Shown piece after piece: positions 6,919-62,546 of a stretch of DNA of 64,000 nt. The notes under the pieces are model-generated. The model was not told where the DNA came from, ran no database searches, and was given only the letters and a program-made list of their open reading frames with translations. This stretch comes from Collimonas arenae (GTDB lineage: Bacteria > Pseudomonadota > Gammaproteobacteria > Burkholderiales > Burkholderiaceae_D): assembly GCF_000786695.1 (NCBI RefSeq), contig NZ_CP009962.1:2728001-2792000 (forward strand). The letters are read 5' to 3'. The translations under genes were made by a program, and so were the position numbers. Each line of letters starts with the position of its first letter. Position 1 is the first letter of the stretch.

Positions 6919-7818
6919 TTAAGCGATGGTTTTCGGATGCAGCAGATCTGCAAGGCCGATACGACGCAACATCTCGCTGCGCACCCGGTCGGCGACGCCA
7001 TTGACGATCTCGCAGCCATCCTGCGATGGATCGACATGGGTGCGAAAAGGACGGCTGCCGAAAGGCATGCCGATCACACCGACGATGGCTGCAGCCACGG
7101 AGCCGGCGTCGGCATCGGCAGGCTCCAGCGCGGCTAACCCTGCCAATGCCAGCTCGGCCACGCCGGCATAAGGGCCGTCGTTATACTCTGCTGCGCGAAG
7201 CTGGTCGGCCGGGGCTCCGGAATGGACGAAGTGATTAGTGCCCTTGGTGAACGCGCCCGGCACGATGATCGAAGTTTCGATCCCCCAGCGCGCCAGTTCT
7301 CCCGCATATGAAACCGCCAGCGAATCCATTGCCGCCTTCGCCGCAAAATAGGGCGACAGGAAGGGCGGCGTGCCTCCGCGCGCGCTGCTGGACGAAATCC
7401 ACATGACCAGTCCCTTGCCTTGTTTGCGTAGTTGAGGCAAGGCGGCGCGATTCACTCTCTGAGTGCTGAGCACGTTGATATCGTAGAGCTGGGCAAACTG
7501 TTCCGGCGTGAAAGCCTCGGCCGGGCCGAATGACATGTGGCCAGCGTTATGAATCACGACATCCAGCCGGCCGCATTCAGCAATGACGCTGGAAATGCCT
7601 GCCTCCACCGAGTCGCTCGCGGCGACATCCAGTTCTACGGTGCGCAGATCAACCTTGTGTTCGGCGGCATAACGCAGCAGTTCGGCGACCTGTGGGGCGT
7701 TGCGGCAGGTAGTTTCGCGCATGCTGGCGTAGACAGTGTGTCCAGCATGCGCCAGTGCGCGGGCGGCGAGGGCGCCGAAGCCGCTGGAGGCGCCGCTAAT
7801 GAGGATGACTTGTTTCAT
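6919..7818 (-). CDS. SDR family oxidoreductase
   Basis: Classical short-chain dehydrogenase/reductase of 299 residues. The N-terminal Rossmann motif GASSGFG binds NAD(P), followed by NAG and a catalytic YFAAK with an upstream serine cluster (ISSSSA). An AAGGAA ribosome site precedes the ATG. It lies just downstream of a second SDR gene on the same strand, with about 50 bases between them, so the two are probably cotranscribed. The LysR regulator that starts divergently upstream is a likely controller. The substrate cannot be deduced; at about 300 residues it is longer than the minimal SDR and resembles broad-specificity carbonyl reductases. Confidence 0.88.
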   Translation of the reverse strand: MKQVILISGASSGFGALAARALAHAGHTVYASMRETTCRNAPQVAELLRYAAEHKVDLRTVELDVAASDSVEAGISSVIAECGRLDVVIHNAGHMSFGPAEAFTPEQFAQLYDINVLSTQRVNRAALPQLRKQGKGLVMWISSSSARGGTPPFLSPYFAAKAAMDSLAVSYAGELARWGIETSIIVPGAFTKGTNHFVHSGAPADQLRAAEYNDGPYAGVAELALAGLAALEPADADAGSVAAAIVGVIGMPFGSRPFRTHVDPSQDGCEIVNGVADRVRSEMLRRIGLADLLHPKTIA

Positions 7819-7872
7819 GATATTTCCTTGGTTTGATGCGGGTTGGAAAGTACATGCATGGAGATGGTTGGA

Positions 7873-8613
7873 TCAGACCATGCCGCCGTTGGCGCGCAGC
7901 GTCTGACCATTGATCCAGCTACCTTCTGCGCCAGCCAGGAAGGCGACCGTGGCGGCGATGTCCTGTGGCTGGCCGAGCCGTTCCAGCGGAGCGATCTTGG
8001 CCAGGCGATCGATCAGCTCTTGCGATTTGCCATTGAAAAACAGGTCAGTGGCGGTCGGACCCGGAGCTACGGCATTGACGGTGATATTGCGGCCACGCAA
8101 TTCCTTCGCCAGTACGCTGGTCAGGGCTTCCACGCCAGCCTTGGTGGCGGCGTATATTCCATATGAAGGTTGCAGCGTGCCGACCACGCTTGAAGAGAAA
8201 TTGATGATGCGACCGCCGTTGCGCAGGCGCTTGCCCGCTTCGCGCATGGTGTTGAAGCTGCCTTTGAGATTGATCGCAATCTGGCGCTCGAAGCTGGCGT
8301 CGTCGGTCTCGGCGATCGTGGTATTTGCCATGATGCCGGCATTGTTGACCAAGATGTCGACGCCGCCGAATGCCTGTTCGGTGTTGTCGAACAGGGCGCG
8401 CACTGCTGCCGGGTCGCTGACATCGGCTTGCAGCGCCAGCGCTTTGCCACCTTCCCGCACAATCTGCTGCGTCAGTGCTTCCGCCGGCGCAGCGTTGCCG
8501 GAATAGTTGATGACGACTGCAAAGCCGTCTCCAGCCAGGCGTTGCGCCACAGCTGCACCGATGCCGCGGGAAGATCCGGTGATGATTGCTACCTGTTGAG
8601 TTTCCTTGTTCAT
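7873..8613 (-). CDS. SDR family oxidoreductase (FabG-like)
   Basis: Short-chain dehydrogenase of 246 residues, like 3-oxoacyl-ACP reductase and glucose dehydrogenase. It has the cofactor motif TGSSRGIGAAVA, NNAGIM, and the catalytic pair in FSSSVVG and YAATKAG. The C-terminal GQTLRANGG is typical of the family. The start at 8613 is chosen because AAGGAG lies six bases upstream and the protein then begins MNKETQQVAIITGSS; the open frame extends 24 codons further but without family similarity. It is the first gene of a two-gene minus-strand unit with the neighbouring SDR and is divergent from the LysR gene. The substrate is unknown. Confidence 0.9.
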   Translation of the reverse strand: MNKETQQVAIITGSSRGIGAAVAQRLAGDGFAVVINYSGNAAPAEALTQQIVREGGKALALQADVSDPAAVRALFDNTEQAFGGVDILVNNAGIMANTTIAETDDASFERQIAINLKGSFNTMREAGKRLRNGGRIINFSSSVVGTLQPSYGIYAATKAGVEALTSVLAKELRGRNITVNAVAPGPTATDLFFNGKSQELIDRLAKIAPLERLGQPQDIAATVAFLAGAEGSWINGQTLRANGGMV

Positions 8614-47859: not shown

Positions 47860-49116
47860 TTAAAGAGCGGTTGCTCCCTGGAGCGCCGCCGTGTTGCTGA
47901 TGCTACGCTGAAGGCGCCAGAGCAGGAGCAAGGCTGTCAGCGAGGTTGCCACCAGCACGTAGCCGAGCACGTCGAAGTGCTGCAGCTTGCCATCCACCCC
48001 GATTGTGACAATGTGACCGGCAACGACTGATGCGATGCCTCCGGACAGCTGCTGGATAGAGGCGCTGATGGCGCTGAACGAGCCGCGCTGGGTCGCCGTA
48101 GGCACCGACGACACCAGCGCCTGGTAAGGAATCATGCGCGAGAAGATACCGACGAACAAAACGGAGTTGACGACGATCAGGACCGGCAAGGAGGTCGGCC
48201 CCAGGTGGGTATAGATCAACACCATCAGGATCGACAGCGCCGTGCCGAATATGAACACCCGAAATTTTCCGAAGGCGTCCGCGGCCTTGCCGATCATAGG
48301 TCCAATGAAGATGGTGCACAGTCCGGTGACAAGGTAGACCGTCGGCAAGTCATGCAGGCCGATGCCGAGGTTGTTGACCGCATAGGCGCTGCCGAAGGGC
48401 ATCAGCATGAAACCGCCGGTGGTCAGCAGCGAAGTCGTGGCGAAGGCCATCAGGTAACGCCGCTCCGTCAGCGTGTGGAACAGATGCATCCACGGGCTAT
48501 GTTCCTGCGGCAGCCCAAGATGCGCGGCGACAGGCTGCATGCGCCAGGCCACGAAGAGACCGCCGAACAGGCCGAGACCGGCCATCGCCAGGAACGGCAC
48601 ATGCCAGTTCCAGCGGTTGGACAGATACAGGCCGACAGGGATGCCCAGCACCTGGCTGGCGGCGAAGGCAGTCTGGATCAGCCCCATCACGCGACCACGC
48701 ATCTGAGGTGGAAACAGGTCTGTCGATATCGCCAGCACGATAGAGCCGATGACGCCGCCGAACAGTCCCGTAACGATACGCGCCAGCAGCAGCATCTCGA
48801 AGCTTTGCGCCAGGCCGCACCACAATGTACCGACGATGAAACCGGTATAAAAGAACAACAGGATCTTCTTGCGGTCGAAGCGGTCGGCAAAACCCGCCGT
48901 CAGCAGCCCCGAGACGCCGGCACTGAAAGCATAGGCAGAAACCACCAGCCCAAACTGCTTCGGACTGATTGCCAGGGCCGGCATGATCACCGCGCCCAGC
49001 GGCGACATCAGCATGAAATCAAGGATGACTGCAAATTGCAGGAAGGCCAGCATCCCGACCACAAATTTCTGGTAGCGGGAGAACTGCGCGGGTAGGGTGG
49101 GGGATATTGGGTTCAT
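47860..49116 (-). CDS. MFS transporter (drug/sugar efflux type)
   Basis: Transporter of 418 residues with 12 predicted helices, of the DHA1 (arabinose efflux-like) branch. The helix 2-3 motif is GFADRFDRKKILLFFYTGF, and GLFGGVIGSIVLAISTDLFP lies in helix 4. The start at 49116 is chosen by family length; a few codons are open upstream. No substrate can be assigned and no regulator is adjacent. Confidence 0.87.
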   Translation of the reverse strand: MNPISPTLPAQFSRYQKFVVGMLAFLQFAVILDFMLMSPLGAVIMPALAISPKQFGLVVSAYAFSAGVSGLLTAGFADRFDRKKILLFFYTGFIVGTLWCGLAQSFEMLLLARIVTGLFGGVIGSIVLAISTDLFPPQMRGRVMGLIQTAFAASQVLGIPVGLYLSNRWNWHVPFLAMAGLGLFGGLFVAWRMQPVAAHLGLPQEHSPWMHLFHTLTERRYLMAFATTSLLTTGGFMLMPFGSAYAVNNLGIGLHDLPTVYLVTGLCTIFIGPMIGKAADAFGKFRVFIFGTALSILMVLIYTHLGPTSLPVLIVVNSVLFVGIFSRMIPYQALVSSVPTATQRGSFSAISASIQQLSGGIASVVAGHIVTIGVDGKLQHFDVLGYVLVATSLTALLLLWRLQRSISNTAALQGATAL

Positions 49117-49319
49117 GGCACTGGAGACGTTTGACAACAAGGAATATTGTGGTGCTACGAAAATATTCCTGCAAAGTTATCAGGGATATAAACATTGGCC
49201 TCGGCAGCATTAACCGTCGCGGGCTATCGATGTTGCAAGAGCGGCGGCGCAGACCGAATCTGGCCGCCGTCAAACAGGCGCTACAGGAGCTTGTTATATA
49301 TGTATGCTACAGGTGCTTG

Positions 49320-50018: not shown

Positions 50019-50829
50019 GGGTGTTTCTCTCCGTATCAGATGTCAATGCCTAGGTGTCCGACATGCTACCAGAAGCCGGCTGCAACGGTTGGAAGGGAGA
50101 AAGAACCGTCTTCGGCGCATGAGAACAAGGCGACCTGCCAAAATCAGCGTCAGGTATTTTGAGATCGGTTACAAAGCGATACAAAAAATTTTAAACGCCG
50201 ATAAACAGAAATTGAACATTGGTTTACTCAGTTAGACATTTCAATTGCACTCTTTTTGGTAATGGAGGTTTGGAAAAACTCATGCGTAACATTTGGCGGT
50301 ATTGCATTTGATTCCAATGGCATTTATTGAATGTCAAATGGATGAAGCACGCTTCGTTTACATCTGGAAATAACCGTCATATTATTTACTCGCAGTGACT
50401 GTACAGACCTGTCTAGGCTGTGATGTTGAATGCAATTCGAATGCAATCATTGTTGAAGCTGGCGCTGATATTTTTCTTGTGGTCAGTGCGCAAAAAAATA
50501 GAAATGTGAATATTGTTTTTACACGCTATTACTTCAAAAGAGTAAATGCTGCAGTTAGTCCTCAAAAGGGAAAGCAAGATGATTCGCACCAGACTCAATC
50601 AAATTCTCACTCCCCCGAACGCGTCTTCAGACGAAGCCGCCATGCCACCGCCCTCCAATTTCCGGCGCAGACAGCGTTAGCGCTGCCGCCATCCCGTTAA
50701 CGGACTGACATCCGTTATTCACTGCATCACGGCAGGTGATGCAGATCCTAGCGTCCCTCAACCCACATTGCTGATTGCCGTGCGGGGCTGTGGCGTCCTT
50801 TGTTTGTTCCAATCAGGAGGAGTAAGCAT
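50019..50829. other. Long AT-rich intergenic region
   Basis: About 800 bases without a convincing gene, upstream of the secreted protease. It is richer in A and T than its surroundings. It holds a direct repeat GAATGCAA-TTC-GAATGCAA (50428-50446), a small CAGCG-TTAG-CGCTG hairpin, and the perfect hairpin listed separately. A frame at 50395-50700 lacks a ribosome site and family similarity and was not called. Confidence 0.6.
50722..50744 (+). other. Hairpin CTGCATCAC-GGCAG-GTGATGCAG
   Basis: A perfect 9-bp stem with a 5-base loop lies 86 bases before the protease start codon. It has no T-tract. It may be an operator or part of the mRNA leader. Confidence 0.5.
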
Positions 50830-52695
50830 ATGTACTCGAAAAAACAAGTAGAAAATTTTGCTGTCCGCAAGGCTTCGACATTGTCAGTTGCATTGTCTCT
50901 GGCGCTTGTATCCATGTCCGTACATGCCGTTGCTACAAGCAACGACACGTGGGTCGGCACCAAAACCCAAGCGTTTTTGCCACATGTGATAGCCAAGCAA
51001 AAAATCCTGGCGGCCAGTGCCAACGTAGTAACGCCGGCGGAATCAGCAGTGCCGCTGGCGCAAGGCGAACCGGTACATGTCACCGTCAGTTTGAATTTGC
51101 ATAACGAAGCAATGCTGGACCAGTTTCTGAAGGACCAGCATACGCCTGGCACCGCGTCCTATGGCAAATTCCTGACACCAGCTCAGTTCGCAGAAAAATA
51201 TGCTCCCACGGAAAAAGACGTGGCCACAGTGGTTGCGCACCTGCGCAAATCGGGTTTCATCAATATCGTGGTTTCAGACAATCGGCAATTGATATCGGCC
51301 GACGGCACGGCAGCTACAGTACAGAACGGTTTCCACACTGGGTTGAAGAGCTTTCAGCATAACGGCCGAAAGGTTTTTGCAAATACAGATGCAGCGCAAG
51401 TGCCCTCAGCGTTGGGTGGCATTGTTAACGCGGTTCTTGGACTGCAAAGCGTTGAGATTGCGCATAAATACAGTTCCTTACTTCCCAACGCAAAAGCTGG
51501 TGTGACACCTCAGGCAACAGCAACGCCAAATGCGAGTCCAATCGAGGCAACACCCGCTCCGATGCAGTTATCCGCAATCTACAACGCCGGTAGCACGCCA
51601 ACGGCGGCCAATACGACAGTTGCCATTATTGTCGTAGGAAGTGTGGTTCCGACGCTTGCCGATTTGAATACATTTACCACGAATAATCAGCTTGCCAGTG
51701 TAAATACCAATGTTGTACAAACCGGTCCGGTGGGCAGCAATTATAGCGACACGAGTGGGCAGGATGAATGGAGTCTGGATAGCCAGGCTATTGTCGGATC
51801 TGCCGGTGGTGCGGTGAAACAGATGATATTCTATGCGTCCCCGGATTTTAGTTACAACGGCCTTACTGCTGCTTTCAACAAAGCGGTGACTGACAACCAG
51901 GCCAAAGTAATCAACGTGTCGATTGGCGGTTGCGAATCAGGAGCCAATGTCAGTGGGATCATGGCGGCTACAGACCAAGTGTTCAAACAGGCTATTGCGC
52001 AAGGTCAGACTTTCTCGATCGCAGCAGGCGATGCCGGAGCCTATAACTGCCAAACCAGCTATGTTTCGGGCTCGCCAGGCGTTGCAGCAAATCCAGCTGC
52101 CTATGATGTCAGCTGGCCGGCGAACTCTTCCTCCGCGATTGCGGTTGGCGGGACTACCTTGTACACATCAGCGGGGGCGTATAGCAGTGAAACGGTCTGG
52201 AACGATGGGCTGAGCACGATCGGAAGCTATGGCACTCAGGGTGGTTATGATTACACGCAGCGCTTGTGGGCTACTGGCGGTGGCTTTAGCAGTTATGAGC
52301 CGGCGCCCGCCTGGCAGGCTGGGGTCATCGGCAACTCAGCTACTCGCGGTCTGCCGGACATTGCTTTTGATGCTGCGAGGTTTTCCATAACGATGAACGG
52401 TCAAAGCGTAGCTCTCCGTGGCACAAGCATCGCCGCTCCAATTTTTGCCGGCATCTGGGCACGTTTGCAATCGGCCAACAATAATGGATTAGGTTTTCCT
52501 GCTGCGAGTTTTTACAAATACTTTAAGTTATCAACTAACTCGTCGCTGTTGCATGACGTGACTTCTGGCAATAATGGCGTATCTGGTTATGGCCGTCAGG
52601 CGGCTATAGGTTGGGACGCAACTACAGGCTTCGGTAGTCTGAACATTGCCAATCTGAATACCTTCATCAAGAACACTTCAGATTTCGCACGTTAA
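50830..52695 (+). CDS. Secreted S53 (sedolisin) peptidase
   Basis: Pro-kumamolisin/sedolisin family peptidase of 621 residues. It has a signal peptide (residues 1-35, ending SMSVHA) and an activation propeptide (PVHVTVSLNLHNEAMLDQFL, GTASYGKFLTPAQFAEKYAP). The catalytic domain follows, with Glu and Asp in GQDEWSLDSQ near residue 311, the oxyanion Asp in SIAAGDAGAYN near 397, and the nucleophile in RGTSIAAPIFAG near 530. The calcium site HDVTSGNNG and GWDATTGFGS closes the chain. These enzymes are active at acid pH. CAGGAGGAG precedes the ATG at 50830. It appears monocistronic. Confidence 0.93.
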   Translation: MYSKKQVENFAVRKASTLSVALSLALVSMSVHAVATSNDTWVGTKTQAFLPHVIAKQKILAASANVVTPAESAVPLAQGEPVHVTVSLNLHNEAMLDQFLKDQHTPGTASYGKFLTPAQFAEKYAPTEKDVATVVAHLRKSGFINIVVSDNRQLISADGTAATVQNGFHTGLKSFQHNGRKVFANTDAAQVPSALGGIVNAVLGLQSVEIAHKYSSLLPNAKAGVTPQATATPNASPIEATPAPMQLSAIYNAGSTPTAANTTVAIIVVGSVVPTLADLNTFTTNNQLASVNTNVVQTGPVGSNYSDTSGQDEWSLDSQAIVGSAGGAVKQMIFYASPDFSYNGLTAAFNKAVTDNQAKVINVSIGGCESGANVSGIMAATDQVFKQAIAQGQTFSIAAGDAGAYNCQTSYVSGSPGVAANPAAYDVSWPANSSSAIAVGGTTLYTSAGAYSSETVWNDGLSTIGSYGTQGGYDYTQRLWATGGGFSSYEPAPAWQAGVIGNSATRGLPDIAFDAARFSITMNGQSVALRGTSIAAPIFAGIWARLQSANNNGLGFPAASFYKYFKLSTNSSLLHDVTSGNNGVSGYGRQAAIGWDATTGFGSLNIANLNTFIKNTSDFAR

Positions 52696-54967: not shown

Positions 54968-55429
54968 ATGCCTGACAAAAGTGTCGTTGCAGAATTACCA
55001 GCAGGCCCCACGGATAACGGTGGCGGCGTCTATCGCCCGCCGCATTTTCCTGGTCCCGCCGAGTTGCCGGTGGCATCCAGCTTTGGAACTGGTCGCGAAG
55101 CCTTAACCGAGCTGTTCCGCCTGCGTGACCGGGTGCATTCCCTGGAATCCCAGTTTCTTGCTAGTAAGCTCAAATTTGGCGCGCATAACCCCAATATTCA
55201 TGAATTGCCAACGCATCTGGAGGCACTTTTCCGCGGCGGCTGGCCAAACGAATTACCTGAAGGCGGGGAAGGCGGCGGGGGCGGCGTTTTTCATCCACGC
55301 CCCGAAATCGCAGAGCTGCCTCCAGAGGTGCTTTCCGGTTTGACGCAGACGCTGGCTGCCTTCACGCAGCGCCTGAGCGCCATCGAAACCAGTATTGCGG
55401 CATTGAACGCCAAAGTTAACACGCGGTAA
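54968..55429 (+). CDS. ELP-repeat small protein
   Basis: Protein of 153 residues without a recognised family. ELP tripeptides occur at residues 9-11, 32-34, 79-81, 95-97 and 116-118, three of them as AELP. Two halves resemble each other: GGGVYRPPHFPGPAELP at 18-34 and GGGVFHPRPEIAELP at 104-118, each followed by an amphipathic helix (about 43-68 and 119-150) that could form a coiled coil. A Gly-rich stretch lies at 99-106. No signal peptide is seen. GGGAG lies eight bases before the ATG. It ends 19 bases before the large fusion gene, so the two are probably cotranscribed, and it may be substrate, scaffold or partner of that enzyme. Confidence 0.7.
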   Translation: MPDKSVVAELPAGPTDNGGGVYRPPHFPGPAELPVASSFGTGREALTELFRLRDRVHSLESQFLASKLKFGAHNPNIHELPTHLEALFRGGWPNELPEGGEGGGGGVFHPRPEIAELPPEVLSGLTQTLAAFTQRLSAIETSIAALNAKVNTR

Positions 55430-55448
55430 ATCGCTAGCTTCGGCATGC

Positions 55449-58313
55449 ATGAACGATAAACGCGAGGCGCTGGCGGAGCATTTGCGCGAGCATGGAATTT
55501 TAGTCGCTTCGGCGGAACAACCGATCCGCCATCGCGACGGCACGCTCGCGCCCTGGGCGTTTTACAGCTGGAATTCAACGCTGACGGAGGAAGGATTGCG
55601 GCTGGCGGCGTTGTGCATTCTTGATCGCTTGAAGGGTTTCCGCTCGACCCAGTTGGCCACCGTCGGCTACACGGGCATGCCGTTGCTGTCGGCCTGCGTG
55701 CTGCTTGGCGAGGGGCGCTATACCGGACTATGCATCCGCGAGCAACGCAAGACCTACGTCTCGTGCCGAAGGATAGAAGGGCCTTTCGACAAGCACGCAC
55801 CGGTGGTGATCATCGACGACTCCATCAGTTCCGGCACGTCGCTCGGCAAAGCAATCCGCGCTATCGAAGACGAAGGCGCGGAGGTGGAGGGCGCGATTGT
55901 GCTTGCGCAATTTCCACATCGCGGCGGTTTCGATTGGGCGAACGCCAACGGCTATCGCACGGAAGCGATCTTCGACATCTGGTCTGATCTCGGCATGGCG
56001 CACACCCTCCCGCACCCACTGCCTCCCTATGCGCCGCCAACCGGCAGCGTGCCGGCCCCGGAAGGCTTGCATCCGGCAGCCTTGGCGCGATTCGCCGCAA
56101 CCACCTATCTGACCACAGGCGTCGCACCGCTGGCGCCACGATCGATGGATCGCAGTTATGAAGATCCGGGCGGCGTGTTTGTGAGCTTTCGTGAGCGGGC
56201 CAACGAACATCGCATCGCCCGCAGCGGATTCTGGCATTTCAATCCTGCTGCCGCGCAGCCATGCAGCGACGTAATTGCCGCCACCATCGACACATTGTGT
56301 GTGGCGAATGGTCAGATCACCATACAGAATCTGGCGCAGCTGAAAATTGCCGTCAGTTTCTTTTCCGCCCTTGAATCGATCGCACCGCGTTACCTGGATT
56401 TCGACCGTTATGGGATCGTCGCACAAAGCCGTGTTTTCCCGATGAAACGCGGCGGCGCGTTGCCCAATACCGAGGTGTTCATCAGCGACGTCGAACAATA
56501 TCGCCACGCGCGCAAAACCAATGCCGGTATCGTACGCAACGAGCCGCACGATATATTCCGCCACGACGTGCATAAATATATCGAGCCGGGCGAAAGCTGG
56601 CTGCCGTATGGTACCCGCGAAAATGACGAGACCAGTTGGTGGCGCAATGCAGCGCTGGGCCATCGCCTCGTTGCGTTTGTCCGGGGATTACTTGCACAGG
56701 CGCTCACGCCCGGCAGCGTAGAACCGGCGGACTTGCAGGATAGCGCCATACCATGCGCCATCGCAGGCGTCGCCGTGCGGCTGTACCATTCCGGGCTGAT
56801 TGGTTATGGTCTTTGCAACGGTCCAGCGTTGGGTGCAGGACTGCGCGAGGCAGTAGCGCAAGTTCTTGCCGACCCAAGACTGAAACGCGAATCACGTGAT
56901 TCACGCGAATTAGAGCGCAATACAAACCTTGCAAGCTGCACAATCGTTGTCTCTGTCCTGCATCACCCGGAGCCGTTAGGGGCGGCACCGATCTCAATGG
57001 TGGCGCGCAAGCTGCGGCGCGGGCTGGACGCGCTCTGTATCGACTACGCAGGTCGGACGACAATCCTGTTGCCAAGCGCCTTGCCCTATAACAACCTGTC
57101 ACGCGAAGCTTTTGTGCGCACAACAGCACAACTGGCGCACGCCGAAACGGCTGCAGAAACCAGGCAAGCAGAATGGCGCACTTTGCAATGCGCCGAATGG
57201 ACGGAATTCGAGGGGCGGGGGCGGCCAATGCGTTTCGGCTTTCCGGACCGTTCTGCGGATGACGAAAAGTGCGCAGATGCCGCCGCGCTGATTCGCCTGC
57301 TTGGCAGCTATATCGCCGGCTCGCTGGATGTCGATGGCATGCCGCGTTACTTGTTGCTGCCTGTTTCCGGTGAAGCGCAAGCGCGCGGCACAGCGGCAAG
57401 GGCAATTCATGCATTGATGGCGCTGGATCTGGCAGGGAGCTTACTCAATGAACGCACCTGGTGCAACGCCGCGCAGACTGGATTACGTCACTGCCTCGTG
57501 CATGTCAGGGACGGAGCGCTGATACTGCCCGGGTGGACCGGTGGCTCGCTGGCCGACGCGGTATTGCTACGCGCAGTTGCCGACCATCCAGCGCTGAGCG
57601 CAAGCGCCGCGGCGCTTTCAATTGCCCGCCGCCTCAGTGGCATGCTGCGTGTGGACGGCCGTATCGGCAGGCCAATCAAACGACTCGACCTGCAAGACGA
57701 TCACGAATATTTTCCAGGCGCAACGCTAGCCGCACTGGGACGCTTCGCGATCGTAGATCCTACAGTGTTGCCGGCTTCGCTTGATGCGCAGATCTCCTGG
57801 TATGCACACCGTTTCAATACTTGCCCGAGCTGGGGATCGGCCGGCTGGTTGCCGCAAGGCTTGCAAGCCTTGCACCGGATCACAGCAGATCCCAAGATGG
57901 CGGAGCTGGCTTTCAAAGCGACCGATTGGGGTATTCAGCAGCAATTGGTGAAGAACGGCGCCTTTCTCGAAGACTTAAGTCCGGACGAGCCAAGCTTCAA
58001 CACCGGTTTCATCGCCGAGGGCGTTGCCGCTTCCCGGGCAATAGCGCTAGACATCGGCGACTCCGAACGCGCGGCGCGCTACGCCGCGTCCTGGTCTGAT
58101 GCAATGCGGTTCATGTCGCGCTTGATTGTTTTTCCCGAAGACGTGTTCGCCATGCCCGTCGGGCTGGCCGCAGTGGGAGGCGTTCGATGCACGCTTTCAC
58201 GCTCGGATATCCGCATCGACCAGGTCAGCCATTGCCTGCATGCGCTGGTGGAAGGCGCACGGCTTGAACAACTGATGCTACGCAACGAGGAAATAGTCGA
58301 ATACGTAAAGTAA
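55449..58313 (+). CDS. Phosphoribosyltransferase-AMMECR1-like-toroid fusion
   Basis: Protein of 954 residues with no full-length match known to me. Residues 1-190 resemble a type I phosphoribosyltransferase of the OPRTase kind: VVIIDDSISSGTS at 119-131 is the PRPP loop, with TVGYTGMPLL upstream. Residues 205-360 and about 430-570 each resemble AMMECR1. The first has DPGGVFVSFRE; the second has IPCAIAGVAV, LREAVAQVLADPRL, IVVSVLHHPEPLG, LRRGLDALCIDYAGR and ILLPSALPYNN, close to the family's VSVL-PE and LLP pattern. Residues 605-954 look like an alpha/alpha toroid (LDLQDDHEYFPGATLAALGR, PSFNTGFIAEG). No signal peptide and no good ribosome site at this ATG, so coupling to the upstream gene is likely. 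Domain assignments are by eye; the PRTase is most certain. Confidence 0.75.
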   Translation: MNDKREALAEHLREHGILVASAEQPIRHRDGTLAPWAFYSWNSTLTEEGLRLAALCILDRLKGFRSTQLATVGYTGMPLLSACVLLGEGRYTGLCIREQRKTYVSCRRIEGPFDKHAPVVIIDDSISSGTSLGKAIRAIEDEGAEVEGAIVLAQFPHRGGFDWANANGYRTEAIFDIWSDLGMAHTLPHPLPPYAPPTGSVPAPEGLHPAALARFAATTYLTTGVAPLAPRSMDRSYEDPGGVFVSFRERANEHRIARSGFWHFNPAAAQPCSDVIAATIDTLCVANGQITIQNLAQLKIAVSFFSALESIAPRYLDFDRYGIVAQSRVFPMKRGGALPNTEVFISDVEQYRHARKTNAGIVRNEPHDIFRHDVHKYIEPGESWLPYGTRENDETSWWRNAALGHRLVAFVRGLLAQALTPGSVEPADLQDSAIPCAIAGVAVRLYHSGLIGYGLCNGPALGAGLREAVAQVLADPRLKRESRDSRELERNTNLASCTIVVSVLHHPEPLGAAPISMVARKLRRGLDALCIDYAGRTTILLPSALPYNNLSREAFVRTTAQLAHAETAAETRQAEWRTLQCAEWTEFEGRGRPMRFGFPDRSADDEKCADAAALIRLLGSYIAGSLDVDGMPRYLLLPVSGEAQARGTAARAIHALMALDLAGSLLNERTWCNAAQTGLRHCLVHVRDGALILPGWTGGSLADAVLLRAVADHPALSASAAALSIARRLSGMLRVDGRIGRPIKRLDLQDDHEYFPGATLAALGRFAIVDPTVLPASLDAQISWYAHRFNTCPSWGSAGWLPQGLQALHRITADPKMAELAFKATDWGIQQQLVKNGAFLEDLSPDEPSFNTGFIAEGVAASRAIALDIGDSERAARYAASWSDAMRFMSRLIVFPEDVFAMPVGLAAVGGVRCTLSRSDIRIDQVSHCLHALVEGARLEQLMLRNEEIVEYVK

Positions 58314-60180: not shown

Positions 60181-60735
60181 ATGAAAAAGAATCTTATCGT
60201 TGCCGCTATCGCTGCTGCTTCCGCCTTCGCCGCTTTTGCTCCTGCTGCTCACGCCGCTGACGGCAAAATCGAGTTCACAGGTCTCGTCAAGGCACAGACT
60301 TGCGTCATCAACGGCGGCGAGGCTAACAACGATTTCACAGTCGCTTTGCCGCCTGTAGCAACTGGCACACTGGCAGAAGCAGGCGCCTGGGCTGGCCGTA
60401 CTCCGTTCTCCATCAAGCTGACTGAGTGCTCGCCGGACACCGGCGAGGTGGCTACGTACTTCGAGCCAGGTTCAACAGTGGACCAAGGGACCGGTGCTCT
60501 GATCGTGGATGCTTCTGATGACAATTCCACCGCCAAAAACGTTCAAATCCGTCTGCTGAACAACGCATTTGCACCTATCAAGGCAGGTGCAGAAGGTGCT
60601 GCGCAGAATTCGCAAATTGCTAAGATCGCAAGCGGCAAGGCAGACCTGAACTACTTTGCGCAATATGAATCGCAGGGCGAAGCAACAGCTGGTATCGCTA
60701 ACTCGCGCGTTCACTACACAATGATGTATCAATAA
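60181..60735 (+). CDS. Type 1 fimbrial major subunit (pilin 1)
   Basis: Pilin of 184 residues of the chaperone-usher class. The signal peptide (MKKNLIVAAIAAASAFAAFA) ends at AHA-ADG. The mature part has the two disulfide cysteines (AQTCVINGG and LTECSPDTG) and the C-terminal penultimate tyrosine region VHYTMMYQ used as the chaperone-binding strand. Pilin 2, 350 bases downstream, is a close paralogue. A stem-loop directly follows the stop. The adhesion target is unknown; no tip adhesin is visible within the window. Confidence 0.92.
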   Translation: MKKNLIVAAIAAASAFAAFAPAAHAADGKIEFTGLVKAQTCVINGGEANNDFTVALPPVATGTLAEAGAWAGRTPFSIKLTECSPDTGEVATYFEPGSTVDQGTGALIVDASDDNSTAKNVQIRLLNNAFAPIKAGAEGAAQNSQIAKIASGKADLNYFAQYESQGEATAGIANSRVHYTMMYQ

Positions 60736-60751
60736 TCGATAAAGTCTCAGT

Positions 60752-60779
60752 TGACCTTTCTCTGGTGAGGGAAAGTTCA
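60752..60779 (+). terminator. Post-stop stem-loop of pilin 1
   Basis: TGACCTTTCTCT pairs with AGGGAAAGTTCA around GGTG (12 positions, one mismatch, one wobble), 17 bases after the stop. Pilin 2 has the same element, and base changes between the copies keep pairing. It probably stabilises the pilin mRNA or limits read-through. A second hairpin (AAGCAGC/GCTGCTT, 60802-60835) lies downstream. Confidence 0.6.
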
Positions 60780-60887
60780 GCATAGTTCTTGCCGTATTTT
60801 CAAGCAGCTTCGACCTCGCGGGGCAGAGGCTGCTTCTGAAGCGATGTCGAGAACGATTCGCGCAAATCCACGCAAGTTTATCTGTTT

Positions 60888-60901
60888 TAGGATCAGTCCT
60901 A
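60888..60901. promoter_or_regulatory. Operator-like palindrome upstream of pilin 2
   Basis: TAGGATCAGTCCTA keeps the arms TAGGA and TCCTA of the pilin 1 site with a different centre. It lies 199 bases before the start of pilin 2. The following leader is conserved with that of pilin 1 for most of its length. Confidence 0.6.
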
Positions 60902-60981
60902 CTCTACCGGTGGCCATTTCCTGACTTGTCTAATTGTCATGGCATGCCGCCATAAATATACTCAGTTTTGCCGTATCGAAG

Positions 60982-60997
60982 CCCAGCGAAGGCTGGG
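60982..60997 (+). other. Leader hairpin of pilin 2
   Basis: CCCAGC-GAAG-GCTGGG, a perfect 6-bp stem at the position matching the pilin 1 leader hairpin. ACATCAGAAGTG follows in both leaders. Confidence 0.5.
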
Positions 60998-61086
60998 GTC
61001 ACATCAGAAGTGGCATTCGCTCGTGAGGCATTTCATCTAACTTTGTTTAAGTTAATTTCATTGTTTATTTTTAAGGTATTTTCTAA

Positions 61087-61626
61087 ATGAAAAAGAATCT
61101 TATCGTTGCCGCTATCGCCGCTGCTTCCGTCTTTGTCGCTTTTGCTCCTGCTGCTTATGCGGCTGACGGTGAAATCAGCATCGAAGGTAACATCACATCA
61201 AAAACTTGCACCATCAACGGCGGTAACAAAAATTTTACAGTCACTTTGCCGACTGTATCGGCTGGAACACTGGCAGTTGCAGGCACCTGGGCTGGCCGTA
61301 CCCCGTTCACCATCAAGCTGACCAACTGCTCACCGACCGGCGGCCAGGTGGCCACGTACTTTGAACCAGGCCCAACAGTGAATAAAGATACCGGTCGTTT
61401 GAGAGTTGATACCGGTGGCGCCACCAAAGTTGAAATCGGTCTGCTGACCGACGCATTTGCGTCAATCGATGCAGCTGCGGCAGTCGGTTCGCAAAAATCG
61501 CAAGTTGTTAGCATCTCAACAGCTGGCGCTGCAGAGCTGAACTACTACGCGCAATATGAATCGACGGGCGGCACAACAGAAGGCAGGGTTAGAACGCGCG
61601 TTAACTACACGATGATGTATCAATAA
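61087..61626 (+). CDS. Type 1 fimbrial subunit (pilin 2)
   Basis: Paralogue of pilin 1, 179 residues, with almost the same signal peptide (MKKNLIVAAIAAASVFVAFA). Shared blocks include the Cys-containing SKTCTINGG, AGTWAGRTPFTIKLTNCSP, VATYFEPG and the C-terminus VNYTMMYQ. The two copies arose by duplication of a unit of about 900 bases that includes leader and 3' hairpins. They have diverged in the middle, so they may be alternative or mixed shaft subunits. Confidence 0.92.
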   Translation: MKKNLIVAAIAAASVFVAFAPAAYAADGEISIEGNITSKTCTINGGNKNFTVTLPTVSAGTLAVAGTWAGRTPFTIKLTNCSPTGGQVATYFEPGPTVNKDTGRLRVDTGGATKVEIGLLTDAFASIDAAAAVGSQKSQVVSISTAGAAELNYYAQYESTGGTTEGRVRTRVNYTMMYQ

Positions 61627-61640
61627 TCGATAAAACCTCA

Positions 61641-61672
61641 GTTGATCCTTCTCTGCTGAGGGAAGGGTCAAC
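61641..61672 (+). terminator. Post-stop stem-loop of pilin 2
   Basis: A 14-bp stem from GTTGATCCTTCTCT and AGGGAAGGGTCAAC with loop GCTG. Compared with pilin 1, a C-T mismatch becomes T-G and a T-A pair becomes C-G. A second hairpin AAGCAGC/GCTGCTT lies at 61718-61752, again as after pilin 1. Confidence 0.65.
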
Positions 61673-61802
61673 GGGCGTTCTTGCTGTATTTTTTGCTGTA
61701 TTTCTTGCCGTATTTTCAAGCAGCTTCGACCTTGCCGTGGCAGAGGCTGCTTCTGAAGCGAGTTCAAGAATTTTTCAATCATTTCTATTCAGGAGCGACA
61801 CG

Positions 61803-62546
61803 ATGAAAAAAGTCCTTCAAAAAGTCATGCTGGTGGCCGCGATGGCTTCAGGTTTCTTCGCTGCACATGCACAAGCGAGTGTGGTCATAGCAGGTACACG
61901 GGTTGTTTTTCCGTCTCAAGAGCGGGAGGTAACCATCAAGGTCACGAACGACGGCAAGGCGCCGGCGCTGGTGCAGACGTGGATCGACAAGGGCATCGCC
62001 GATGCATCTCCGGACACGATCGACGTGCCGTTCACCTTGACGCCAACCATGTTTCGCCTGGACCCAAAAAAAGGGCAGACCTTGCGCCTGATGTATACGA
62101 AAGAGCCGCTCGCCAAGGACAAGGAAACACTGTTCTGGCTCAATGTACTGGAAATTCCGCCAAAGCCGACAGCAGAAGCCGATGCGAACCGGATTCAGCT
62201 GGCATTTCGTACCCGTATCAAGATCATGTTCCGGCCGCAAGAGTTGACGGGCAAGGCCGAAGAGTCGCCGGCCAAAGTGACGTGGCAAGTGGTCCATGCT
62301 GCCGATGGCAAGGGTTACCAGTTAAAGGCGAGTAATCCAACGCCTTATTTCGTGAACCTGGGCAATGTGGATGTGAAGATCGGCGATAAAACATTCGATG
62401 CAGGGAGCGGGTTTGTGAAGCCCGGTGAATCGGAGTTGTTTAACATCGCTGATTTGACCGCGCTGCCTGCAGCAGGCGCAGAAGTGCTTTACAACGCCAT
62501 CAACGATTGGGGCGCTGGCGTCAAAGGCAAGGCAGTGACGCAATAA
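61803..62546 (+). CDS. Periplasmic fimbrial chaperone
   Basis: Pilus assembly chaperone of 247 residues (PapD/FimC family). The start at 61803 gives a signal peptide (MLVAAMASGFFAAHAQA). Family features follow: VVIAGTRVVFPSQEREVTIKV with the conserved Arg of the subunit-anchoring cleft, ALVQTWIDKG, PTMFRLDPKKGQTLRLMY, ETLFWLNVLEIPP, and LAFRTRIKIMFRP. The second Ig domain contains NPTPYFVNLG. It carries pilin subunits to the usher. It lies 176 bases after pilin 2. Confidence 0.95.
   Translation: MKKVLQKVMLVAAMASGFFAAHAQASVVIAGTRVVFPSQEREVTIKVTNDGKAPALVQTWIDKGIADASPDTIDVPFTLTPTMFRLDPKKGQTLRLMYTKEPLAKDKETLFWLNVLEIPPKPTAEADANRIQLAFRTRIKIMFRPQELTGKAEESPAKVTWQVVHAADGKGYQLKASNPTPYFVNLGNVDVKIGDKTFDAGSGFVKPGESELFNIADLTALPAAGAEVLYNAINDWGAGVKGKAVTQ

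Follow-up and report, generated by a model that had tools for sequence, protein, structure and literature searches.

What joins a small protein rich in Glu-Leu-Pro (ELP) tripeptides to a large multidomain enzyme encoded immediately behind it? The question is raised by a stretch of 64,000 nucleotides from Collimonas arenae (contig NZ_CP009962.1, positions 2,728,001 to 2,792,000; hereafter the window), in which an ELP-repeat protein of 153 residues, a putative precursor or substrate (54968..55429, + strand), lies 19 bp ahead of a 954-residue fusion enzyme (55449..58313, +). The reading that we put forward, with belief and doubt about evenly balanced, is that the two genes form a maturation cassette like those of ribosomally synthesized and post-translationally modified peptides (RiPPs), in which the fusion modifies the repeat protein at or near Glu–hydrophobic–(x)–Pro units. 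Its observed basis consists of the domains of the enzyme, a conserved machinery for phosphoribosyl pyrophosphate (PRPP), the coupling of the genes, the recurrence of Glu/Pro repeats, and RiPP-type enzymes in some relatives.

A four-domain enzyme and its repeat-protein neighbour

A preliminary description of this DNA had assigned to the large protein a phosphoribosyltransferase (PRTase), two AMMECR1-like stretches and a helical C-terminal third, read as a toroid. Profile searches and a predicted structure (predicted local distance difference test, pLDDT, 92.5; predicted template modelling score, pTM, 0.90) bore out all three. As modelled, the protein is an orotate phosphoribosyltransferase (OPRTase) fold with a PRPP loop and catalytic Lys and Arg, followed by two AMMECR1 domains and an (alpha/alpha)6 toroid. 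The match list for the full model covered mainly the toroid and the PRTase, and families missing from it may still match.

The OPRTase-like domain (residues 1-183; 55449..55997, +) has the type I PRTase fold. Its conservation was read from an alignment of 67 rows, two of which are duplicates (L012 = P0005, L013 = P0008) and two of which (L021, L024) were trimmed to the last 925 residues, their upstream frames having run on; alignment A1 takes in 52 of 68 hits. R97 and K101, which bound the segment that we take to be the catalytic loop (55737..55751, +), were identical in all 67 rows, as were D123, S125, S128 and G129 of the PRPP-binding loop VVIIDDSISSGTS (residues 119-131; 55803..55841, +), where D124 was kept in at least 93%; the role of the acidic pair in this loop is likewise presumed from OPRTases. 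PyrE proteins (5hkl, 2p1z and the human UMPS domain 2wns) showed about 20-23% identity to the fusion, which differs from them in having three further domains. Since its score against the pyrE equivalog model (43.4 bits) lay under the cut-off of 106.8, the fusion was not filed as PyrE.

AMMECR1 similarity, presumed earlier for both middle regions, was found in each by profile and in the first also by a structure model of its own. Domain 1 spans about residues 205-385 (56061..56603, +) and domain 2 about residues 396-590 (56634..57218, +). The whole fusion passed the Pfam gathering score (36.8 vs 25, best stretch 491-574), and both copies matched the family (PF01871; 1vaj, 1zq7, 1wsc) by profile, the second reaching an E value of 1.9e-15 with 1zq7. 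The first copy alone scored 22.6 in the window, just under 25; the AMMECR1 fold was present in it, also in its own structure model, and 15 of the 16 aligned first copies matched at E up to 1. Comparison of the two copies by hhalign gave an E value of 0.006 with a probability of only 6%, and the assignment rests on structure and Pfam. Unlike the known family, the copies are tandem, divergent and joined to a PRTase and a toroid. At the place of the RGCIG-type Cys motif, presumably a conserved AMMECR1 feature, several relatives keep GC in copy 2, and the window reads GYGLCNG. The score against the AmmeMemoRadiSam protein A model TIGR04335 (32.4 bits) remained under its cut-off of 99. We know of no molecular role described for AMMECR1. 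An account of the fusion, or any paper treating AMMECR1 together with orotate phosphoribosyltransferase, was not found in the open-licence PubMed Central literature, subscription journals and preprints lying outside this search; the family has been linked to a human developmental disorder (PMC5502304).

The toroid (about residues 603-950; 57255..58298, +) has the (alpha/alpha)6 fold and resembles sugar epimerases and glycosidases of this fold, namely cellobiose 2-epimerase, GH76, GH88-like proteins and AprG, with terpene cyclases ranking nearly level among the matches. Four of its residues, E857, R913, D924 and H928, were kept in all 17 toroids of an alignment.

For the small protein, the preliminary description had noted five ELP tripeptides, a twofold duplication and the distance of 19 bp to the 954-residue open reading frame (ORF), all of which were confirmed. 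Its two halves aligned with a score of 58, reached by 0 of 2000 shuffles, and share the order ELP, Gly-rich stretch, V-Y/F, ELP and helix-like segment; the internal duplication is real. The protein had no NCBIfam match and 51 relatives besides itself, and conservation was determined on 32 of the 52 listed sequences (alignment A2). It peaked at the E and P of units 1, 2, 4 and 5 and at the PEG core after unit 4. In motif 1 (residues 9-11; 54992..55000) E9 and P11 were invariant; E32 and P34 of motif 2 (residues 32-34; 55061..55069) were at least 90% conserved, as were P93, E95, P97, E98 and G99 around motif 4 (residues 95-97; 55250..55258), which opens the NELPEGGEGGGG core, and E116, L117 and P118 of motif 5 (residues 116-118; 55313..55321). 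Motif 3 (residues 79-81; 55202..55210; all five on the + strand) occurred in part of the family only. E48, R53, R55 and E60 of the helix-like segment were also among the most conserved residues. Among five loci, nonsynonymous divergence (dN) was 0.28-0.76, and synonymous divergence (dS) reached 1.16 or more, or saturation, in 10/10 pairs, which indicates that the gene evolves as a protein under purifying selection.

Glu/Pro repeat proteins at the fusion loci

We compared 16 fusion loci, that is, the window, L011 to L024 and a second Mycobacterium copy (L039, in its longer form L042, which replaced it in the motif count); L025 to L038 are repeats of loci already included. All 16 contained a Glu/Pro repeat protein. 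The expectation that an ELP-type protein always lies beside the fusion failed, since this family was the neighbour in only six loci (the window, L011, L012, L013, L014 and L018), in one of which, L011, the gene is split between frames. At the other ten, a different low-complexity Glu/Pro repeat protein lies directly beside the fusion (eight loci) or one gene away (two). The cassette proposed earlier therefore holds as a wider rule of Glu/Pro-repeat neighbours and not as a literal ELP rule, and the earlier suggestion that the small protein may be a substrate, carrier or scaffold gains strength from these relatives.

The units at the ten non-ELP loci include PELPERPE, GPEIGPE, DHSEVP, IEAPEP, VEIAGP and PEIAPE. 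Repeats read PELPERPEFPE in L016, GPEIGPETGPE in L017, GIEAPEPGPRP in L020 and HPEVAPQHPG in L023; those of L019, L021, L024, L022, L042 and L015 are PDHSEVPDHSEV, DVVEIAGPIHHGPG, GGVVEFAGPDPHP, RVEARPKTPQYKPP, HPEIAPEISETEP and PETPELPETPEIPE, respectively. Common to them is a Glu, usually followed by a hydrophobic or small residue, with Pro within about two residues; in L022 Arg precedes Pro (EARP, EMRP), and HPEVAP-type units were judged by eye to be common to L023 and L042. BLAST linked the ELP proteins mutually, L021 with L024, L016 with L019 (1e-25) and L015 with L019 (6e-10), the last two perhaps by composition; the repeat proteins of L017, L020 and L022 had no match to the others in the all-against-all comparison of flank ORFs. 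As a side observation, the repeat proteins of L021 and L024, encoded upstream of the fusion, end in a His-rich tail, a sequence feature suggestive of metal binding.

Coupling of the two genes was tight. In L012, L016, L017, L021, L024 and L042 the fusion's earliest in-frame start codon falls within the repeat gene; in L019 the repeat gene lies downstream and overlaps the end of the fusion, and in L042 the repeat gene, the fusion and a radical S-adenosylmethionine (SAM) gene overlap successively by one to four bases, taking the nearest starts. Repeat ORFs of L014, L018, L021 and L023 begin at the earliest start codon that their frame offers, with upstream residues that may be untranslated, and those of L015 and L017 run off contig ends.

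We counted ORFs with E-hydrophobic-(x0-2)-P units within 200 bp of the fusions and, as controls, of 135 genes from the same loci. Five or more units were found for 13/16 fusions and 9/135 control genes (Fisher 1e-10), figures that are descriptive and post hoc, the motif having been picked after the sequences were seen. With a threshold of four units the counts were 13/16 vs 13/135, and with at least six, 8/16 vs 3/135. The five-unit test was missed by L011, whose frame is broken, and by L015 and L020, whose repeat ORFs lie 1460 and 923 bp from the fusion, with a methyltransferase gene and an ATP-grasp gene, respectively, in between. Under a density rule (at least five units and 2.5 per 100 residues within 5 kb), 12/16 loci had a qualifying ORF, and in each of the 12 it was the repeat gene alone.

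RiPP-type signals were found at some of these loci. The L020 repeat protein (7692-8378, +) passed NF033738, the NCBI model of microviridin and marinostatin precursors (32 bits, cut-off 26), whereas the other nine repeat proteins scanned alongside it had no precursor-model match. It contains TMAYPSDSDADGG twice, as marinostatin-like cores among IEAPEP units, and is reported here as a putative graspetide-type hybrid precursor. The gene that follows encodes an MvdC-like ATP-grasp protein (TIGR04185, 1.1e-48; 166 bits, under the equivalog cut-off of 425). Graspetides resemble L020, and differ from the fusion loci in general in that the ligase was recognised at 1/16 of them, their flanks having been scanned in part. 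Repeat-containing graspetide precursors are known (PMC8939145, PMC13097080), and the main text of these two papers mentions neither phosphoribosyl nor AMMECR1.

At L022, L023 and L042 the fusion has, within 1 kb, a gene of TIGR03975, the RiPP radical-SAM C-methyltransferase family (516-550 bits, cut-off 281.85); at L022 the repeat gene stands between the two. Each of the two fusions of Mycobacterium sp. OAS707 adjoins one of the two TIGR03975 genes of this genome, and the resulting cassettes (L058, L042) of repeat protein, fusion and TIGR03975 differ in their repeat units. In its genus TIGR03975 scored above cut-off in 6/287 genomes, and a dense Glu/Pro repeat ORF lay within about 5 kb of 0/5 other TIGR03975 genes (one flank, L054, being shortened by a contig end) vs 2/2 OAS707 loci; in this genus, therefore, the repeats go with the fusion and not with the radical SAM gene. 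Bacterial AMMECR1 proteins are known to accompany Memo and a radical SAM enzyme. The earlier remark that radical SAM genes are absent stood for the window, whose whole genome had no TIGR03975 match above cut-off, no search aimed at Memo or its radical SAM partner having been made, and fell for the family, in which three of 16 loci have this B12-type enzyme within 1 kb. TIGR03975 is of another type than the AmmeMemoRadiSam radical SAM, the latter being mentioned for Memo-Ammecr1 systems in a passage of PMC7159879.

Candidate roles of the cassette

If the two genes form such a cassette, the small protein would be a ribosomally made multi-repeat substrate. The OPRTase-like domain would activate PRPP and transfer ribose 5-phosphate, either onto the repeat itself or onto whatever may be bound there, the toroid would rearrange or trim the attached sugar, and the two AMMECR1 domains would hold the chain or join in the chemistry. 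In some relatives a graspetide-type ligase, a B12 radical-SAM C-methyltransferase and a SAM methyltransferase may add further steps. One conserved enzyme is paired with varied repeat proteins that have only a short motif in common, as would follow if this motif served as substrate or docking site. The comparison of loci gives good support to the repeat as a putative substrate; Glu would be the site of modification, and ribosyl chemistry is suggested by the fold. A PRPP-derived modification reworked by a sugar-active toroid would be the simplest chemistry that uses all domains. If this reading is right, a PRPP-using, AMMECR1-containing enzyme would join RiPP-type biosynthesis, AMMECR1 would gain a substrate context testable in E. 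coli, and the repeat proteins would offer many regular modification sites. Decoration of the repeats by the enzyme, which the neighbouring genes suggest, would be a form of modification not yet described for a gene-encoded protein.

A bolder version of this proposal, which we regard as unlikely, is a new protein modification in which a single enzyme adds the ribose 5-phosphate of PRPP to tandem Glu-Pro repeats and then isomerises or trims it in its own toroid. The product would be a repeat polymer that is gene-encoded and bears sugar; the repeat proteins paired with the enzyme, and the graspetide-type or radical-SAM tailoring, would differ from one bacterium to another.

Several observations weigh against the maturation cassette. 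The chemistry is inferred from fold; the pyrE score lies far under cut-off, and proteins with a toroid fold catalyse reactions of many kinds. Repeats of low complexity may simply act as spacers. RiPP-type enzymes were recognised at four of the 16 loci (L020, L022, L023 and L042), the flanks elsewhere having been scanned in part; beside the window cassette no known RiPP enzyme was found in the three neighbours scanned at E 1e-10, nor did its genome show a TIGR03975 gene above cut-off. To the post hoc choice of the motif is added that the contrast shrank with a looser one (13/16 vs 26/135; 8/16 vs 16/135 at eight or more units, p 7e-4; 7/16 vs 9/135), and that the density rule failed at L011, L014, L021 and L022. 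Given the BLAST links, some of the repeat groups may be related in sequence. No leader common to the repeat proteins was visible, and several of them also matched an IgA-binding or FliH model, most likely through composition.

Three other explanations were considered, in falling order of probability: a scaffold, a carrier peptide and coincidence. It is doubtful, although more probable than the other two, that the repeat protein goes unmodified and serves as a scaffold or multivalent docking tether, whose Glu-Pro units bind copies of the fusion, with radical-SAM or ligase partners, in a metabolic assembly for turning PRPP into a small molecule. Multivalent low-complexity repeats, the conserved helix-like segments of the ELP family and the tight gene coupling would suit such a tether, and PRTases normally act on small molecules. 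However, a scaffold would lead one to expect more sequence kinship among the repeat proteins than was seen, and it sits poorly with the L020 protein, which a curated model recognises as a RiPP precursor and whose gene precedes that of an MvdC-like ligase, and with the C-methyltransferases at three loci. An improbable alternative makes the repeat protein a carrier: following a pearlin-like logic, a small metabolite would be assembled on it and then released by cleavage, with the fusion adding a ribose-derived part. The combination of a PRTase and a sugar-active toroid suggests a metabolite, and pathways on carrier peptides are known (PMC9303977). In line with this alternative, a major facilitator superfamily (MFS) transporter-like gene, named by eye, lies directly downstream of the fusion in two syntenic Actinomycetospora loci (L021:12781-14697, L024:12825-14762, +), and L018 and the window flank (47860-49140) show weaker, distant MFS matches, as a large family would give. 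Nevertheless, when the flank ORFs were compared all against all by BLAST, nothing resembling an aminoacyl ligase was noticed beside the repeat genes, with family models applied to part of the flanks, and long tandem repeats better suit many parallel sites than one carrier end.

It seems very improbable that the fusion serves nucleotide salvage or regulation and that the repeat ORFs are incidental low-complexity DNA in GC-rich genomes. Its PRTase domain is indeed OPRTase-like, GC-rich repeats stay open in several frames, and 15 of the 16 loci have 57-76% GC. Against this stand the enrichment of 13/16 vs 9/135, the purifying selection on the ELP gene, fusion starts inside the repeat gene, the match to a RiPP-precursor model, and L015, which has a PE repeat at 42% GC.

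Distribution, toroid relatives and neighbouring genes

Three degenerate patterns, run in a scan that was not exhaustive over a single genome from each of 84,980 species, gave 14 fusion loci. Carriers were two Acetobacteraceae, Dyella, Paraburkholderia, a member of the Caulobacteraceae, one of the Syntrophobacteraceae, Hamadaea, a member of the Intrasporangiaceae, Cellulomonas, two Actinomycetospora, Mycobacterium and two unclassified bacteria. The second copy in Mycobacterium sp. OAS707 is the one compared above. In the genus of the window the fusion was found in 0/14 other genomes, and nine other hits of the same search, among 60 genomes, were weak (E 3.5e-7 or worse) and confined to residues 6-189, the PRTase domain. 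Family and genus searches around seven carriers, which scored few candidates per genome, returned at E 1e-60 1/248, 2/249, 1/144, 1/233, 2/249, 1/300 and 1/200 genomes, all of them known carriers. The fusion gene is rare and scattered over unrelated bacteria, which suggests horizontal transfer. A viral origin was rejected, as 47 stretches of viral contigs matched a pattern and none was a relative, with none in phages. Clusters of the small protein and of the fusion agreed in longest-contig size in seven cases (the window included), besides one short value of 1235 bases, and this agreement points to further linked ELP/fusion pairs on other contigs.

Run against a protein database, the toroid profile picked out 117 proteins among the 8000 best candidates, and 38 of 63 new identifiers had at least 780 residues, the length expected of the fusion. 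The window's toroid matched no named Pfam family of the (alpha/alpha)6 fold, and a profile search of the Protein Data Bank with it gave chance-level matches only. GH88 matched one of 17 toroid members, P0121, at 18.9 bits, under the cut-off of 26.6. In a plasmid search the toroid part only was found, in one plasmid, pTElox9 of Thioclava electrotropha (L040:3298-6648), where P0121, a protein of 552 residues with the same toroid (137 bits; 362 bits when P0121 itself is in the query alignment), adjoins a MurF-like Mur ligase among Tad-pilus genes. P0121 differs from the fusion in its neighbours and in having neither a PRTase nor a recognisable AMMECR1 domain, and this plasmid locus is a second, different setting of the toroid family.

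The neighbourhoods contained further genes. SAM methyltransferases with a Cys-rich N-terminus and 37% identity were encoded in L015 (673-1920, -) and L020 (12224-13303, -), from two distant bacteria. In the window, a large ORF (50800-52695, +) was judged by eye to resemble a secreted sedolisin-type (S53) protease; it had no NCBIfam match at 1e-10 and weakly matched an ORF in the L016 flank (27%, 1.5e-9). Downstream of the fusion comes a pair of similar secreted proteins that share their N-terminus, followed by a fimbrial-chaperone-like protein; by eye this region (60181-62546, +) looks like a pilus locus.

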